Positions 4,918 through 55,494 of a stretch of DNA of 64,000 nucleotides are shown here, in pieces (position 1 is the stretch's first letter; every line of letters begins with the position of its first letter). This stretch comes from Chakrabartia godavariana. GTDB lineage: Bacteria; Pseudomonadota; Alphaproteobacteria; Sphingomonadales; Sphingomonadaceae. Both the position numbers and the translations under genes were made by a program. The stretch is from the NCBI GenBank assembly GCA_005518185.1, contig RKSN01000002.1, forward strand, positions 434,001 to 498,000, given 5' to 3'. The notes under the pieces were generated by a model. The model searched no databases and had not been told where the DNA came from. It saw only the letters and a list, made by a program, of their open reading frames with translations.

Positions 4918-6327
4918 TCAGGACAGCGGCAGGTCCGCGTCCCTGTCCTTGGGCATATGCATGTCGAGCGACATCAGGATCGACTGGCGCAGCTCGGCTG
5001 GAATGGTTGGGTCTCCGGCGATCCGCGCACGCGCCTGGGCGAGCGACGCCGCAACCAGTGCACGCGTCGCCTTCGCATCGGGTGCGCAGACCGCAATGCG
5101 GATCATGCGCGTCGGGCCGTCGGGCAACGCGATCTGCGTCTGATAGCTGGAGAGCGTCGCGCCGTCGCCGCAGCGGGCGGGCATGGCGGCAGAGACGGTC
5201 GTGCTGATCGGCTGGACCGGAACCGGGGCACCGGCATCAGCGAGCACCAGATCAGGGCCGCGACCAGCAACATCGGCGGGCTCGACCGGCGGAAGGGCCG
5301 CGGCGGGCGGTGCGGGCGGCACCGGCACGGCGGGCACGGTCGGACGGGCCTTGGGCGCAGCCGGGACAGAGGGTGCCTTGGGCGGCAGTGGCACATCATT
5401 GCGGGCCAGCAGCGGCGCAACGGGCGCCACAACATGGCTGGCCCGCGCGGCGATGCCGGTGGATGCGGTCAGCGCGAGCCCGCCGACAACGACCAGCCCG
5501 GCGACCGCCGCGCCGCCGCGCATCGGGGCAAGACGGCCCTCGACGATGCGGCGCAGGCGGGTCTTGAGGCCGGTCCTGGCGGTCATCGTGCAGGCGGCCA
5601 GCGGCACGCCGCCCGTCGCCGATTTGACGAGGGCCGTGCCATAGGCATGGCGGTCCGACGCGCTGGCGCCGCGCAGCACCATGGCATCGCAGGCGGCTTC
5701 CTGATCGAGCCGGAAGGCGCGCCAGGCGATGTGCGCCACAGGATTGAACCAATGGAGCGCGAGCACGGCGAGCCCCGCAAAATTGGCGATCAGGTCGCCG
5801 CGCCGATGGTGCGCCACTTCATGGTCAAGCGCGAACCGCTGTTCGGCGGCATCATAGCGTTCGGCAAAATCGGCAGGCACGACCACCATCTTGCCCCGCA
5901 CGCCAAAGGCCAGCGGCGACCGGACGCGGGGACTGGCCTGTACAACGAAGGCGTCGTGATCGCACAACGGCGCGCAATCCCGCCGCACCCGCGTGGCAAA
6001 GCGGCGATAGGAAACCAGATGCCAGCCCAGAAAGCCGAGGCTGCCCACCGCCCAGAGGAGAGCGATCCCCGCCAGCCAGTGCGCCCCGTCCGCAGGCACG
6101 ACCGGTGTTGCCCGGTCGATCAGCAGCGAGACCCTGGCGACGGGCGCAACCTCGGCGGCGCTCCAGCTGTGCGGCAGCGGCGGCAGGACCATGCGCAGCG
6201 CCGGGAGCAGCCACAAGGCATAGGCGATGCGCGGACCGAAACGGCGGCTTACCGGCTCGCGCAGGGCCAGAACAAGGAGCATCAGCAGCGTTGACGCGAC
6301 CAGCGTCTCGATCATCCAGCCGCTCAT
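4918..6327 (-). CDS. BlaR1-type M56 metallopeptidase sensor
   Basis: A 469-residue integral membrane metallopeptidase. Membrane segments lie at about 6-23, 36-50, 85-104 and 260-285. The zinc motif HEVAH is at 169-173, with GDLIANFAGLAVLALHWFNP after it, as in BlaR1/MecR1. BlaR1 cleaves or inactivates the BlaI repressor on receiving a signal. Here the C-terminal beta-lactam-binding domain is absent, replaced by a Pro/Ala-rich linker (about 305-365) and a small Cys-pair domain (C386, C414). It overlaps blaI by 4 bp. The ligand is unknown and need not be a beta-lactam. Confidence 0.85.
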   Translation of the reverse strand: MSGWMIETLVASTLLMLLVLALREPVSRRFGPRIAYALWLLPALRMVLPPLPHSWSAAEVAPVARVSLLIDRATPVVPADGAHWLAGIALLWAVGSLGFLGWHLVSYRRFATRVRRDCAPLCDHDAFVVQASPRVRSPLAFGVRGKMVVVPADFAERYDAAEQRFALDHEVAHHRRGDLIANFAGLAVLALHWFNPVAHIAWRAFRLDQEAACDAMVLRGASASDRHAYGTALVKSATGGVPLAACTMTARTGLKTRLRRIVEGRLAPMRGGAAVAGLVVVGGLALTASTGIAARASHVVAPVAPLLARNDVPLPPKAPSVPAAPKARPTVPAVPVPPAPPAAALPPVEPADVAGRGPDLVLADAGAPVPVQPISTTVSAAMPARCGDGATLSSYQTQIALPDGPTRMIRIAVCAPDAKATRALVAASLAQARARIAGDPTIPAELRQSILMSLDMHMPKDRDADLPLS

Positions 6328-6692
6328 TTCTTCAGCTCCTGCAGCAGGGCTTCGATCTCGGCGATATCTTCGGGCGTCAGCTTCTCAGCGTCCGCAAATT
6401 GCGCAACGAGCGGGCTGAGCCTGCCGCCGAAAAGGCGGTCGACAAGGCGGCCGGATTCATGCGCGACATACTCGGTGCGCTCAATGGCTGGACGGTAGAG
6501 GAACTTGCGGCCCTGCGTTTCAGTCGTCAGCGCATCTTTCGACACAAGCCGCGACAGCAGCGTCTTCACCGTCGCCAAGGTCCAGCTCTGCGAACCGGAC
6601 AGGCGGTCGTAGATGGACTGGGCATCCAGCGGTGCATTGTCCCAAAGGACTTCCATCACCGCATGTTCCGCGTCGCTGATCCGTTCGGCCAT
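6324..6692 (-). CDS. BlaI/MecI/CopY-family repressor
   Basis: A 122-residue penicillinase-repressor-type regulator: N-terminal winged helix (ISDAEHAVMEVLWDN; TLATVKTLLSRLVSKDAL) and a C-terminal dimerisation part (IEALLQELKK). Such proteins bind TACA/TGTA dyads and are inactivated by their M56 partner, encoded immediately downstream with an ATGA overlap. A matching operator lies 47 bp upstream of its start, consistent with autoregulation. Confidence 0.9.
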   Translation of the reverse strand: MAERISDAEHAVMEVLWDNAPLDAQSIYDRLSGSQSWTLATVKTLLSRLVSKDALTTETQGRKFLYRPAIERTEYVAHESGRLVDRLFGGRLSPLVAQFADAEKLTPEDIAEIEALLQELKK

Positions 6693-6738
6693 CTGCGTCG
6701 GCTCCTGTCCAGTGCGAGTCTCGCCCGCTTCTTGTGAC

Positions 6739-6748
6739 TACAAATGTA
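6739..6748. promoter_or_regulatory. Predicted BlaI operator
   Basis: TACAAATGTA is a perfect copy of the TACA-N2-TGTA dyad recognised by BlaI/MecI-type repressors and lies just upstream of the blaI-like gene. Binding here would autoregulate the repressor, sensor and secreted-protein operon. Confidence 0.65.
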
Positions 6749-6829
6749 ATCGATCGCCTGAACGGCAGATGAATGTGCAGAAGACGGGGCTTCGGGCGCC
6801 GGAGCCAGAGCCCCGAACGGCTTGCCTCC

Positions 6830-6926
6830 GTCGGGAATTTTGACAGGTCTGGCCTTTGGTTAATCTGGCTTCACCATCGAACGCGTCGGAAATCCGACAC
6901 GGACACAGTCTGGCACGCAGCCTGCA
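6830..6926 (+). promoter_or_regulatory. Sigma-54 promoter with two upstream dyads (unit A)
   Basis: TGGCACGCAGCCTGCA (6911-6926) has the invariant GG and GC of the -24/-12 elements exactly 10 bases apart. Upstream are a 15-bp imperfect dyad, GTCGGGAATTTTGAC (6830-6844), and a perfect 14-bp dyad, GTCGGAAATCCGAC (6885-6898). They look like enhancer-binding-protein sites. Distances between dyad 1, dyad 2 and promoter (55 and 26 bp) are identical in unit B although much of the sequence between differs. TGGTTAA and CTTCACC boxes between the dyads are approximately conserved. Confidence 0.75.
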
Positions 6927-6936
6927 TCTCTCTTTG

Positions 6937-7022
6937 TGTTCCCAACGAGCGTTCCCCAAACGCTTCTAAAGGGCGGGTCGATTGCTCCTCTGGTCTCGCA
7001 TCGATCCGCCCTTTCCCGTTTC
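6937..7022 (+). ncRNA. Candidate sigma-54-driven small RNA, copy A
   Basis: The predicted transcript starts about 12 bases after the -12 GC, near 6937. It forms hairpin 1 (AGCGTT / AACGCT, loop CCCCA, 6948-6964) and hairpin 2 (15-bp stem 6968-6982 with 7000-7014, 17-base loop 6983-6999) followed by CCCGTTTCT, which could act as the terminator. The loop contains CTCCTCT, complementary to a purine-rich ribosome-binding site. No plausible reading frame is present. A second copy lies at 7423-7508. No known RNA family was recognised. Confidence 0.65.
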
Positions 7023-7039
7023 TAAATAGCCGCCAAGCA

Positions 7040-7298
7040 GTGCTCCGGGCCGGAGCCTAGGCATCGTACGCACATCCGCTGTCACACAGCCGTCGCCCCG
7101 TGCCTGACACGGGGCTGGGCAGAGCGTCCTCGGGTTTCAGCTCCGAGCGGCCAATCGGCCATTGGCACCGGAGATCCAGCCATTCGCTCTCCATCCCGAA
7201 GATGGGATGACAAGAAAAGCCAGGCCCCGTGTCAAGCACGGGGCGACGGAGAGGGTCTTGGCGCTCGGACATGGGCTCCGGCTCAAGGCTGGAGCACG
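7040..7298. repeat. Composite inverted-repeat element between the two small-RNA units
   Basis: Two pairs of palindromic sequences face each other. The outer pair is GTGCTCCGG...GGAGCC (from 7040) against GGCTCC...GGAGCAC (7274-7298). The inner pair is CCCCGTG-CCTGA-CACGGGG (7096-7114) against CCCCGTG-TCAAG-CACGGGG (7225-7243). No coding potential is visible in the middle. It resembles a dispersed intergenic palindromic repeat or a small MITE-like insertion. Confidence 0.6.
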
Positions 7299-7315
7299 GA
7301 CATGATGGCCACCCT

Positions 7316-7412
7316 GTCGGAAATTCTGACAACCCCCCACATGGTTAAAATTGCTTTCACCACCGCAGCCGTCGGATTTCCGGCACGCGTTCAAACTGGC
7401 ACGCGACCTGCA
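7316..7412 (+). promoter_or_regulatory. Sigma-54 promoter with two upstream dyads (unit B)
   Basis: TGGCACGCGACCTGCA (7397-7412) again gives GG-N10-GC. Dyad 1 reads TGTCGGAAATTCTGACA (7315-7331) and dyad 2 GTCGGATTTCCGGC (7371-7384). Spacings of 55 bp (dyad 1 to dyad 2) and 26 bp (dyad 2 to promoter) match unit A exactly, which argues for function rather than chance. Confidence 0.75.
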
Positions 7413-7422
7413 TTGTTATAGG

Positions 7423-7508
7423 CGTTCCCAACGAGCGTTCCCCAAACGCTTCTCAAAGGGCGGATCGACAGCTCCTCTGGTCTCGCGTCGGTCCGCCCTT
7501 TCCCGTTC
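7423..7508 (+). ncRNA. Candidate sigma-54-driven small RNA, copy B
   Basis: Nearly identical to copy A. Hairpin 1 (7434-7450) is unchanged. Hairpin 2 pairs 7455-7469 with 7487-7501 around a loop (7470-7486) that differs from copy A at one base of 17. The closing pair changes from T-A to C-G between copies and two other stem positions change only between Watson-Crick and G-U pairs, so the stem is preserved by compensating changes. It lies upstream of the convergent grxD terminator and has no reading frame. Confidence 0.65.
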
Positions 7509-7523
7509 TGGAAAGCCCCTTCC

Positions 7524-7590
7524 CCGTTCGTGTCGAGCGAAGTCGAGACACCTTGGCGCCGCGTCCCTCGACGTCGCTCGGGACGAACGG
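7524..7590. repeat. Dispersed intergenic palindromic repeat, copy 1
   Basis: Bounded by CCGTTCG and CGAACGG, with internal palindromes around TGTCGAG...GAGACA and GTCCCTCGACGTCGCTCGGGAC's two arms. A shorter relative occurs at 63848-63903, also in an intergenic gap. Confidence 0.6.
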
Positions 7591-7613
7591 AAGTAGAAGT
7601 CTCGAACCCAAAG

Positions 7614-7641
7614 AAAAAACCGCGCAGGTTTCCCCGCGCGG
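7614..7641 (-). terminator. Rho-independent terminator of the DUF1476-bolA-grxD unit
   Basis: On the minus strand CCGCGC (7641-7636) pairs with GCGCGG (7625-7620) and is followed by six T (7619-7614). It lies 27 bp beyond the grxD stop. Confidence 0.8.
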
Positions 7642-7667
7642 CTCTCAAACCCGAACCTGATCCGAGA

Positions 7668-8003
7668 TCAGGCGGCGGTGGTCGGCACGCCCTTTTCGGC
7701 GAGAAGGTCGGCCAGTTCGCCGGCTTCGTACATTTCCATCATGATGTCCGATCCGCCCACGAATTCGCCCTTCACATAGAGCTGCGGGATGGTCGGCCAG
7801 TCCGAAAACTCCTTGATGCCGGTGCGGATCTCCGCATCCTGCAGCACGTCGACGCTCGCAAACTCGACGCCAAGGCGTTCGAGGATGGCGACCGCGCGGC
7901 TGGAAAAGCCGCACTGCGGGAAATAGGGTGTGCCCTTCATGAACAGCAGAACGTCGCTGCTGTTCACAAGTTCGCCGATACGGGCCTGGGTGGCGTCCGT
8001 CAT
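7668..8003 (-). CDS. grxD: Monothiol glutaredoxin, Grx4 family
   Basis: A 111-residue monothiol glutaredoxin with the CGFS active site at residues 31-34 and the family segments [21 protein letters not shown] and [16 protein letters not shown] glutaredoxins carry [2Fe-2S] clusters with glutathione and work with BolA in iron-sulfur trafficking. bolA lies directly upstream, 10 bp away, on the same strand, which supports a functional pair. A strong terminator follows. Confidence 0.95.
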
Positions 8004-14807: not shown

Positions 14808-14900
14808 GGAGACGTGGGTGAGTGGCTGAAACCAACGGTTTGCTAAACCGTCGTAGGGGGATTACTCCTACCGAGGGTTCGAATCCCTCCGTCTCCGCCA
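14808..14900 (+). tRNA. tRNA-Ser (GCU anticodon)
   Basis: A complete class II tRNA with acceptor GGAGACG / CGTCTCC, anticodon loop TTGCTAA (anticodon GCT at 14842-14844), a long variable arm (CGTAGGGGGATTACTCCTACCG), T-arm GGGTTCGAATCCC and encoded CCA. It reads AGC/AGU serine codons. Its 3' end doubles as the left attachment site of the island to its right. Confidence 0.97.

Positions 14901-55418: not shown

Positions 55419-55494
<76 letters not shown>

Follow-up and report, generated by a model that had tools for sequence, protein, structure and literature searches.

Predicted twin sigma-54 small RNA genes with a PrsR-type upstream site in sphingomonads, and their probable pairing with the leader of the Tad pilin gene

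Two tandem units in the window, the 64 000-nucleotide stretch of Chakrabartia godavariana DNA analysed here, each carry a conserved structured RNA of ~80 nt placed just after a promoter of the sigma-54 type. We consider it probable that they encode a pair of sibling small RNAs, made under PrsR and sigma-54, which pair with the leader of flp and repress translation of the pilin. Comparison of related genomes brings out the RNA family with its promoter and upstream site, its association with PrsR, and the coevolution of the loop with flp.

The geometry of the units had been noticed in a preliminary description of this DNA, and it is exactly as described: the offset is 486 bp, and the spacings from dyad 1 to dyad 2 and on to the promoter are 55 and 26 bp in both (Table 1). 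That description placed the feature at 6830–7412, and so ended it too early, as the strongest conservation lies downstream and extends to about 7018 in unit 1 and 7505 in unit 2. This best-conserved part comprises GTTCCCAACGAGCGTTCCCCAAACGCTTC and then a 15-bp hairpin, with a single mismatch, whose loop is GCTCCTCTGGTCTCGC. Between the units identity is 72% from dyad 1 into the transcribed part (144 bp) and rises to 91% in the downstream hairpin (53 bp). TGGCACGNNNNYTGCA is present at these two units and nowhere else in the genome of 3.17 Mb; the pattern read backward has three matches. The RNA gene is duplicated in tandem in three of the four genomes of the genus.

Transcription from a sigma-54 promoter is expected to start about 12 bp past the GC of the promoter, and in both units this position coincides with the conserved GUUCC. 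Neither promoter leads to a reading frame, as had been claimed: among frames of at least 90 aa none was seen to begin just 3′ of either, and on that basis we reject a downstream protein gene. A 95-aa frame begins upstream of unit 1 and passes through it. The picture of promoters without a gene missed the predicted product, a conserved small RNA. No PEP-CTERM gene lies downstream of the element; the structured RNA is there instead.

Table 1. Features of the two units and of their surroundings in the window.
Feature	Position	Strand	Sequence or remark
Motif 1 (predicted PrsR site), unit 1	6829..6845	+	CGTCGGGAATTTTGACA; includes dyad 1; 17 nt, 65-nt spacer
Dyad 1, unit 1	from 6830		GTCGGGAATTTTGAC
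Middle element, unit 1	6858..6879	+	GGTTAA-N6-TTCACCATCG
Dyad 2, unit 1	6885..6898	+	GTCGGAAATCCGAC; genus-specific
Sigma-54 (-24/-12) promoter, unit 1	6911..6926	+	TGGCACGCAGCCTGCA
Small RNA 1 (predicted), conserved part	6938..7018	+	5′ GUUCCC, hairpin 1, hairpin 2; R1 105.1 bits; fold z -4.5
Hairpin 2, small RNA 1	6968..7014	+	arms 6968-6982 / 7000-7014
Loop core, small RNA 1	6990..6997	+	CUGGUCUC; complementary to GAGACCAG ahead of flp start codon
Motif 1 (predicted PrsR site), unit 2	7315..7331	+	TGTCGGAAATTCTGACA; dyad 1 from 7316
Dyad 2, unit 2	7371..7384	+	GTCGGATTTCCGGC
Sigma-54 promoter, unit 2	7397..7412	+	TGGCACGCGACCTGCA
Small RNA 2 (predicted), conserved part	7424..7505	+	R1 102.5 bits; fold z -3.8
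Hairpin 2, small RNA 2	7455..7501	+	arms 7455-7469 / 7487-7501; loop core CUGGUCUC at 7477-7484
95-aa frame	6773-7060		begins upstream, passes through unit 1
Inverted repeat between units	7090-7120 / 7219-7249		intergenic; 31-nt arms, 90% complementary
Inverted repeat after units	7518-7600		CCGTTCGTGTCGAGCGAAGTCGAG...GGGACGAACGG
BlaR1-type M56 peptidase gene	4918-6327	-	adjoins unit 1 together with the BlaI-type gene
Penicillinase-repressor (BlaI-type) gene	6324-6692	-	
Glutaredoxin gene	7668-8003	-	after unit 2; G127 and G050 likewise have a glutaredoxin-like frame close to theirs
tRNA gene	14808-14897	+	
tRNA gene	55422-55494	-	

The folds of both RNAs are more stable than those of shuffled sequences (z values in Table 1). 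At gathering thresholds Rfam 15 finds two tRNAs in the whole window and no match to the units, and between 6700 and 7670 at E values up to 10 there are five matches, all far under their own gathering scores. On this lack of a covariance-model match we reject membership of a known Rfam family (Qrr, GlmY/GlmZ and others). The hairpin is followed by no U-tract, and a simple scan of the + strand from 6700 to 7700 found no terminator. A separate terminator-like hairpin lies downstream in 16 of 102 units, neither of them in the window, as compared with 0.45 in mononucleotide shuffles. We reject a plain terminator as the explanation of the conserved hairpin because the loop, the 5′ segment, the promoter and the upstream site are kept at fixed distances.

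How general is this RNA? By DNA similarity alone relatives are found in 5 of 199 genomes of the family, the window's own included. A covariance model of the transcribed part (R1), built from nine sequences, matches 23 of the 199, of which 21 were judged true on inspection; the matches L032, L033 and L037 were judged false. The promoter lies outside this model, and in 15 of 20 loci inspected a sigma-54 promoter is found 25–30 bp before the R1 match. One locus (L031 in G129) has a variant promoter with GT at -12, and in another (L029 in G198) the RNA is longer and the promoter stands before a GTGTCCC that comes earlier in it. A second model (R2), of promoter and RNA together, was built from 24 sequences and matches 105 of the 199 genomes, spread over 62 of the 96 genera. 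The matches in two genomes (G040 and G192) were judged false, as was a second match in G157. Conservation in related genomes had been set beforehand as a test of the pattern, and it is borne out by these matches. In L029 and in L114 (G078) the site and promoter are shared, but the RNA is longer and different and has a strong terminator-like hairpin at its end; judged from the sequences, these two may represent a third RNA type.

The stem is supported by compensatory change. Pairing is found in 91.7% of cells, against 80.8 ± 0.9 in shuffles, and on A5 12 of 16 pairs have double changes, with 59 double-change cells against 16.1 ± 4.3 in shuffles. With related sequences, and a structure derived from one of them, these figures are not probabilities. 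The covariation is lost on sliding by one to three columns. Further pair types in the stem are not in excess (19 against 19.7).

The loop core CUGGUCUC has its complement in the ribosome-binding site of flp, which encodes the Tad pilin. The pattern GAGACCAG-N0-12-ATG has 17, 15, 4 and 11 matches in the four genomes of the genus, and the backward pattern 3, 6, 3 and 6. The recurrent start region is GGAGACCAGAG-ATG of a 55-aa Flp pilin, present in three of the four genomes and twice in one of them; it was not found in the fourth, G050. An flp gene with the target start region lies ~7–8 kb from prsR once in each of three genus genomes. The distance between the RNA gene and flp is ~2 kb in G006 and G162, 10 kb in G145 and 15 kb in G077.

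Fifty genomes were surveyed for flp, 40 of them RNA-positive and 10 PrsR-negative, and Flp genes are present in all of the former and eight of the latter. RNA and leader were compared in the 37 RNA-positive genomes with a recognised main copy (flp1), 36 of which entered the test of exact complementarity; in G124, G129 and G168 no main copy passed the motif filter. Exact complementarity of the RNA to its own flp1 leader has a mean of 8.08 nt, against 6.95 ± 0.18 when partners are swapped (0 of 2000 swaps), and the mean with second flp copies is 7.04. The duplex energy of loop and leader is -14.3 against -12.6 swapped (0 of 5000 swaps), with automatic picking of the loop that took the wrong hairpin in some genomes.

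Loop and leader change together, as CUGG/CCAG, CCGG/CCGG, CAGG/CCUG and CCGA/UCGG. Among 23 type A genomes, counted with a fixed loop core and with G198 left out, the variable loop base forms a Watson–Crick pair with flp1 in 19 (0 of 20 000 permutations), the mismatches being in G025, G090, G108 and G169. With one genome per genus, which is a crude control for kinship, the pair is Watson–Crick in 10 of 13 (9 of 20 000 permutations, or 16 of 20 000 with the worst choice of genomes): five C–G, four U–A, one A–U and three U–U misfits. The whole 8-mer is perfect in 15 of the 23, including CCGAUCUC/GAGAUCGG in G083, and G155 fits at the variable base but not across the whole core. In type B (Erythrobacter-like) genomes five to seven of the eight loop positions pair with flp. 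Five RNA-positive genomes (G034, G049, G091, G117 and G181) gave no scorable pair of loop and flp.

There is a second region of complementarity. The 5′ segment of the RNA matches its own flp leader over 6.7 nt, as against 5.5 ± 0.17 nt when swapped (0 of 5000), and the complement reaches 10–11 nt in G094, G095 and G145. The leader contains GGAAC in 15 of 21 genomes whose RNAs begin with 5′ GTTCC and in 3 of 16 others. Likewise, CGAAGA is present in all four leaders that accompany TCTTCG RNAs, and in 3 of 33 others.

Is flp the main target? The RNAs might act chiefly on other mRNAs while still being controlled by PrsR and sigma-54, the fit to flp being one of several or owed in part to chance, given how common such a ribosome-binding sequence is; of the alternatives this is the strongest, and we regard it as unlikely. 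The target scan was based on a pattern, and in G000 GAGACCAG stands also in start regions of genes for a SIMPL-domain protein (in G185 too), a PBP-like protein, a TauD-type protein and an aldehyde dehydrogenase. In the same direction, GGAGACC is shared by two of seven PrsR-negative control leaders (G032 and G036). Of 1155 other candidate start regions, drawn from the window and from the prs locus and in many cases spurious, 8 score as well as flp when hybrid energy is the sole measure. The longest complement to the loop among these 1155 is 7 nt, however, against 10 for flp1. A further objection is the covariation of loop and flp over genera: one position shows three types of base pair, and G083 adds another pair. 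The second contact fits its own leader above swaps, and the second flp copies are without the core: GGAGACC is found in none of 30 second-copy start regions (27 of them from RNA-positive genomes), whereas it is present in 26 of 37 genomes for flp1.

Some individual leaders deserve description. The start regions of the SIMPL-domain protein read AAGGAGACCAGATxATG (L324 in G000 and L317 in G185), and on this sequence the protein is a possible further target; so, possibly, is the PBP-like protein of G000 (L322). Two second flp copies have complements to other parts of the RNA, a 10-nt GACCAGGGAA in L378 (G050) and a 9-nt TGGGGAACG in L313 (G127), so that second copies may be targeted in a different way. 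No PrsR site was found within 350 bp before flp in four leaders of three genomes. G000 and G185 (L309 and L310), unlike the G127 leaders, have a sigma-54-like TGGTAA-N5-TTTGC ~74 bp ahead of the target site, with no PrsR motif. In G055 the flp leader (L357) has a loop-like CTCTGGTCTCCG of its own that folds onto the ribosome-binding site GGAGACCGG with a computed energy of -28.4 kcal/mol; on this model it may imitate the small RNA from within the leader.

It is rather improbable that the RNA mainly binds a protein or acts as a sponge, or that it activates flp instead of repressing it. The sign of regulation is a predicted one, and the ability of the G055 leader to fold back on its ribosome-binding site means that leader structure matters. 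Against this, the pairing spans the Shine–Dalgarno sequence itself, and the coevolution of loop and flp points to base pairing.

A regulatory element has been predicted before PEP-CTERM genes, consisting of a 17-nt motif ending TTTACA (or TTTGACA) and a 17-nt sigma-54 motif, with a spacer of 62.8 ± 10.6 nt and with PrsR inferred as its binder; PrsK/PrsR is there predicted to regulate exosortase/PEP-CTERM systems (Haft et al. 2006, PMC1569441, in excerpt). The units resemble this element in the 17-nt motif, the spacer of ~63 nt, the sigma-54 motif and the presence of PrsR and PrsK in the genome, and differ from it in preceding a small RNA rather than a PEP-CTERM protein gene. The excerpt mentions a few PrsR-type sites before other genes and names no RNA.

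The upstream site lies outside the R2 model, and was tested on 85 R2 matches not used in building it. The strict form [TC]GTCG-N9-ACA is present upstream in 77. The other eight include ACG in place of ACA in L071, L072 and L082 and a TGTCA variant in L073; four were set aside, L131, L138 and L149 as judged false and L077 as mis-indexed at a contig edge. Of the remaining 81, 80 have [TC]GTCG-N9-AC, at -79 to -83 in 79 and at -71 in one. The consensus across 105 motif-bearing units is TGTCGG..tTtACA. The copies in the window end TTTTGACA and TTCTGACA, a close variant of the TTTACA of most relatives.

Dyad 1 sits within the 17-nt motif, 65 bp ahead of the promoter in both units. The preliminary description took both dyads for activator sites of the GTCGGA type, and this view finds no support, as dyad 1 alone is conserved in the family. 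The dyad 2 motif is present in 4 of 106 units, all from the genus of the window, and perfect inverted repeats with arms of at least 5 at that place are found in 15 of the 106, as against about 10 in shuffles. Between the two lies a middle element, cgttaAcCatcg in the consensus of the 106 units; it is of the ACCA type in 82 and exactly TTAACCA in 27, and we take it to resemble a CtrA half-site.

The genome encodes PrsR (682 bits, cut-off 502.6), PrsK (532 bits, cut-off 300) and RpoN. A prsT-like gene (247 bits, under the cut-off of 312), prsR, prsK and a TIGR03013 glycosyltransferase gene stand in a row ~46 kb past the end of the window. In scans of this genome for the full element of PrsR site and sigma-54 promoter the two RNA genes were the sole good matches found; the others (two and four in two scans) are without the T-rich right half. 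Across the family PrsR is above cut-off in 166 of 199 genomes. The RNA (R2) is found in 100 of these 166 and in 5 of the 33 others (Fisher p = 1.4e-6, kinship ignored), or in 98 and 5 when the two false matches are removed; an R2 match is absent in 66 of the 166. No PrsR-negative genome that is at least 99% complete has the RNA (0 of 24), and the five PrsR-negative carriers are 67–97% complete. The rpoN gene is present in all 50 genomes tested, RNA-positive or not, and thus does not discriminate the carriers. The guess of a PrsR-type activator in the preliminary description is supported by the motif and its spacing, by prsR, prsK and rpoN in this genome, and by the greater frequency of the RNA in PrsR-positive genomes. 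On these data a sigma-54-dependent activator of the PrsR type is well supported as the predicted regulator.

There are many sigma-54 activators, the PrsR site is here a predicted one, and PrsR is not above cut-off in five draft genomes with the RNA. The small RNAs could accordingly be made under another NtrC-type regulator, for which we see little probability. That idea is opposed by the agreement in motif, length and spacing with the predicted element of Haft et al., and by the co-occurrence given above together with the incompleteness of the five exceptions. PrsR remains our preferred activator.

Further afield, a pattern scan (site, promoter and GGTCTC) across a collection of 84 980 species gave at least 120 stretches. 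Among the 80 matches listed, most are from Novosphingobium, Sphingomonas, Erythrobacter, Qipengyuania, Porphyrobacter, Sphingobium and their kin, and R2 matches 75. Two R2-negative matches among those listed (L206 and L219) resemble real units, and a third (L185) runs into a reading frame; L173 and L193, which are in coding sequence, look like chance. A few of the matches listed carry other taxon names, one being a Cytophagales MAG, probably mis-binned, which R2 also matches. Across 289 genomes of the class R2 gives five matches, three of them within the family; of the other two, that in G211 has no upstream site and looks like chance, and that in G406 is near a contig edge. That the units are not genes, the promoters being decayed or accidental or the whole a product-less intergenic repeat, we regard as very improbable: the units are known here as sequence only and further repeat-like sequence lies between and after them, but the compensatory changes in the stem, the fixed geometry in about 60 genera and the coevolution with flp all speak against it. 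The inverted repeats between and after the units look like dispersed repeat elements.

The preferred mechanism may be set out as follows; transcription, binding by PrsR, the sign of the effect and the physiological switch are steps that we infer. The kinase PrsK would activate PrsR, which would bind its site, placed 65 bp ahead of the -24/-12 promoter, whereupon sigma-54 RNA polymerase would transcribe the unit. The transcript would start near GUUCC and fold into the conserved stem-loop, and the exposed loop CUGGUCUC could then pair with the Shine–Dalgarno region GAGACCAG of the flp mRNA just ahead of the AUG. Pairing over a Shine–Dalgarno sequence usually blocks translation, and here it would block that of the Tad (Flp) pilin. 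The 5′ segment of the RNA would pair at a second place, further up the leader. Because small RNA and flp leader present these contacts in one and the same order, the two cannot form a single continuous duplex; the geometry suggests a kissing complex or the participation of two molecules. We speculate that tandem copies help such two-site pairing. When the PrsR programme of exopolysaccharide and PEP-CTERM proteins is on, Tad pili would go down.

A wider proposal is offered more tentatively, and we rate it below an even chance. In the sphingomonads the small RNA, and not sorted proteins, might be the principal and most conserved output of PrsK/PrsR, an off-switch for Tad pili with a double-kissing grip on the flp leader, coevolved with its target, with the tandem copies perhaps supplying one molecule per site. 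If our account is true, PrsK/PrsR controls a conserved RNA that links the polysaccharide matrix and adhesive pili in many environmental bacteria. Since the loop and the flp start site coevolve, there is a direct target that can be tested, and the small RNA could act as a readout of PrsK/PrsR activity.

We found no small RNA tied to PrsK/PrsR, nor the predicted target of this family, in the open-licence literature. In two features the units fit the class of sigma-54-controlled, base-pairing small RNAs: a -24/-12 promoter directly ahead of a structured, non-coding RNA, and covarying pairing with the flp leader. Sibling small RNAs driven by sigma-54 are a known kind, with Qrr and GlmY/GlmZ as examples. 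The Qrr small RNAs are sigma-54-dependent. Activated by LuxO in Vibrio, they are likewise several related RNAs that share a conserved core for pairing and answer to a response regulator of the NtrC type; the regulator, bacteria and target are different, and the units have no Rfam match. GlmY and GlmZ are regulated by GlrR and target glmS. These enterobacterial RNAs are siblings with sigma-54 promoters like the units, and again the regulator and target differ and Rfam makes no connection. Tandem duplication of regulatory RNAs is found in AbcR1/AbcR2 and in OmrA/OmrB, the latter of 88 and 82 nt in excerpts of the relevant papers, and compared with these the units have other promoters and targets and no Rfam match, while sharing the arrangement of twin genes in tandem.
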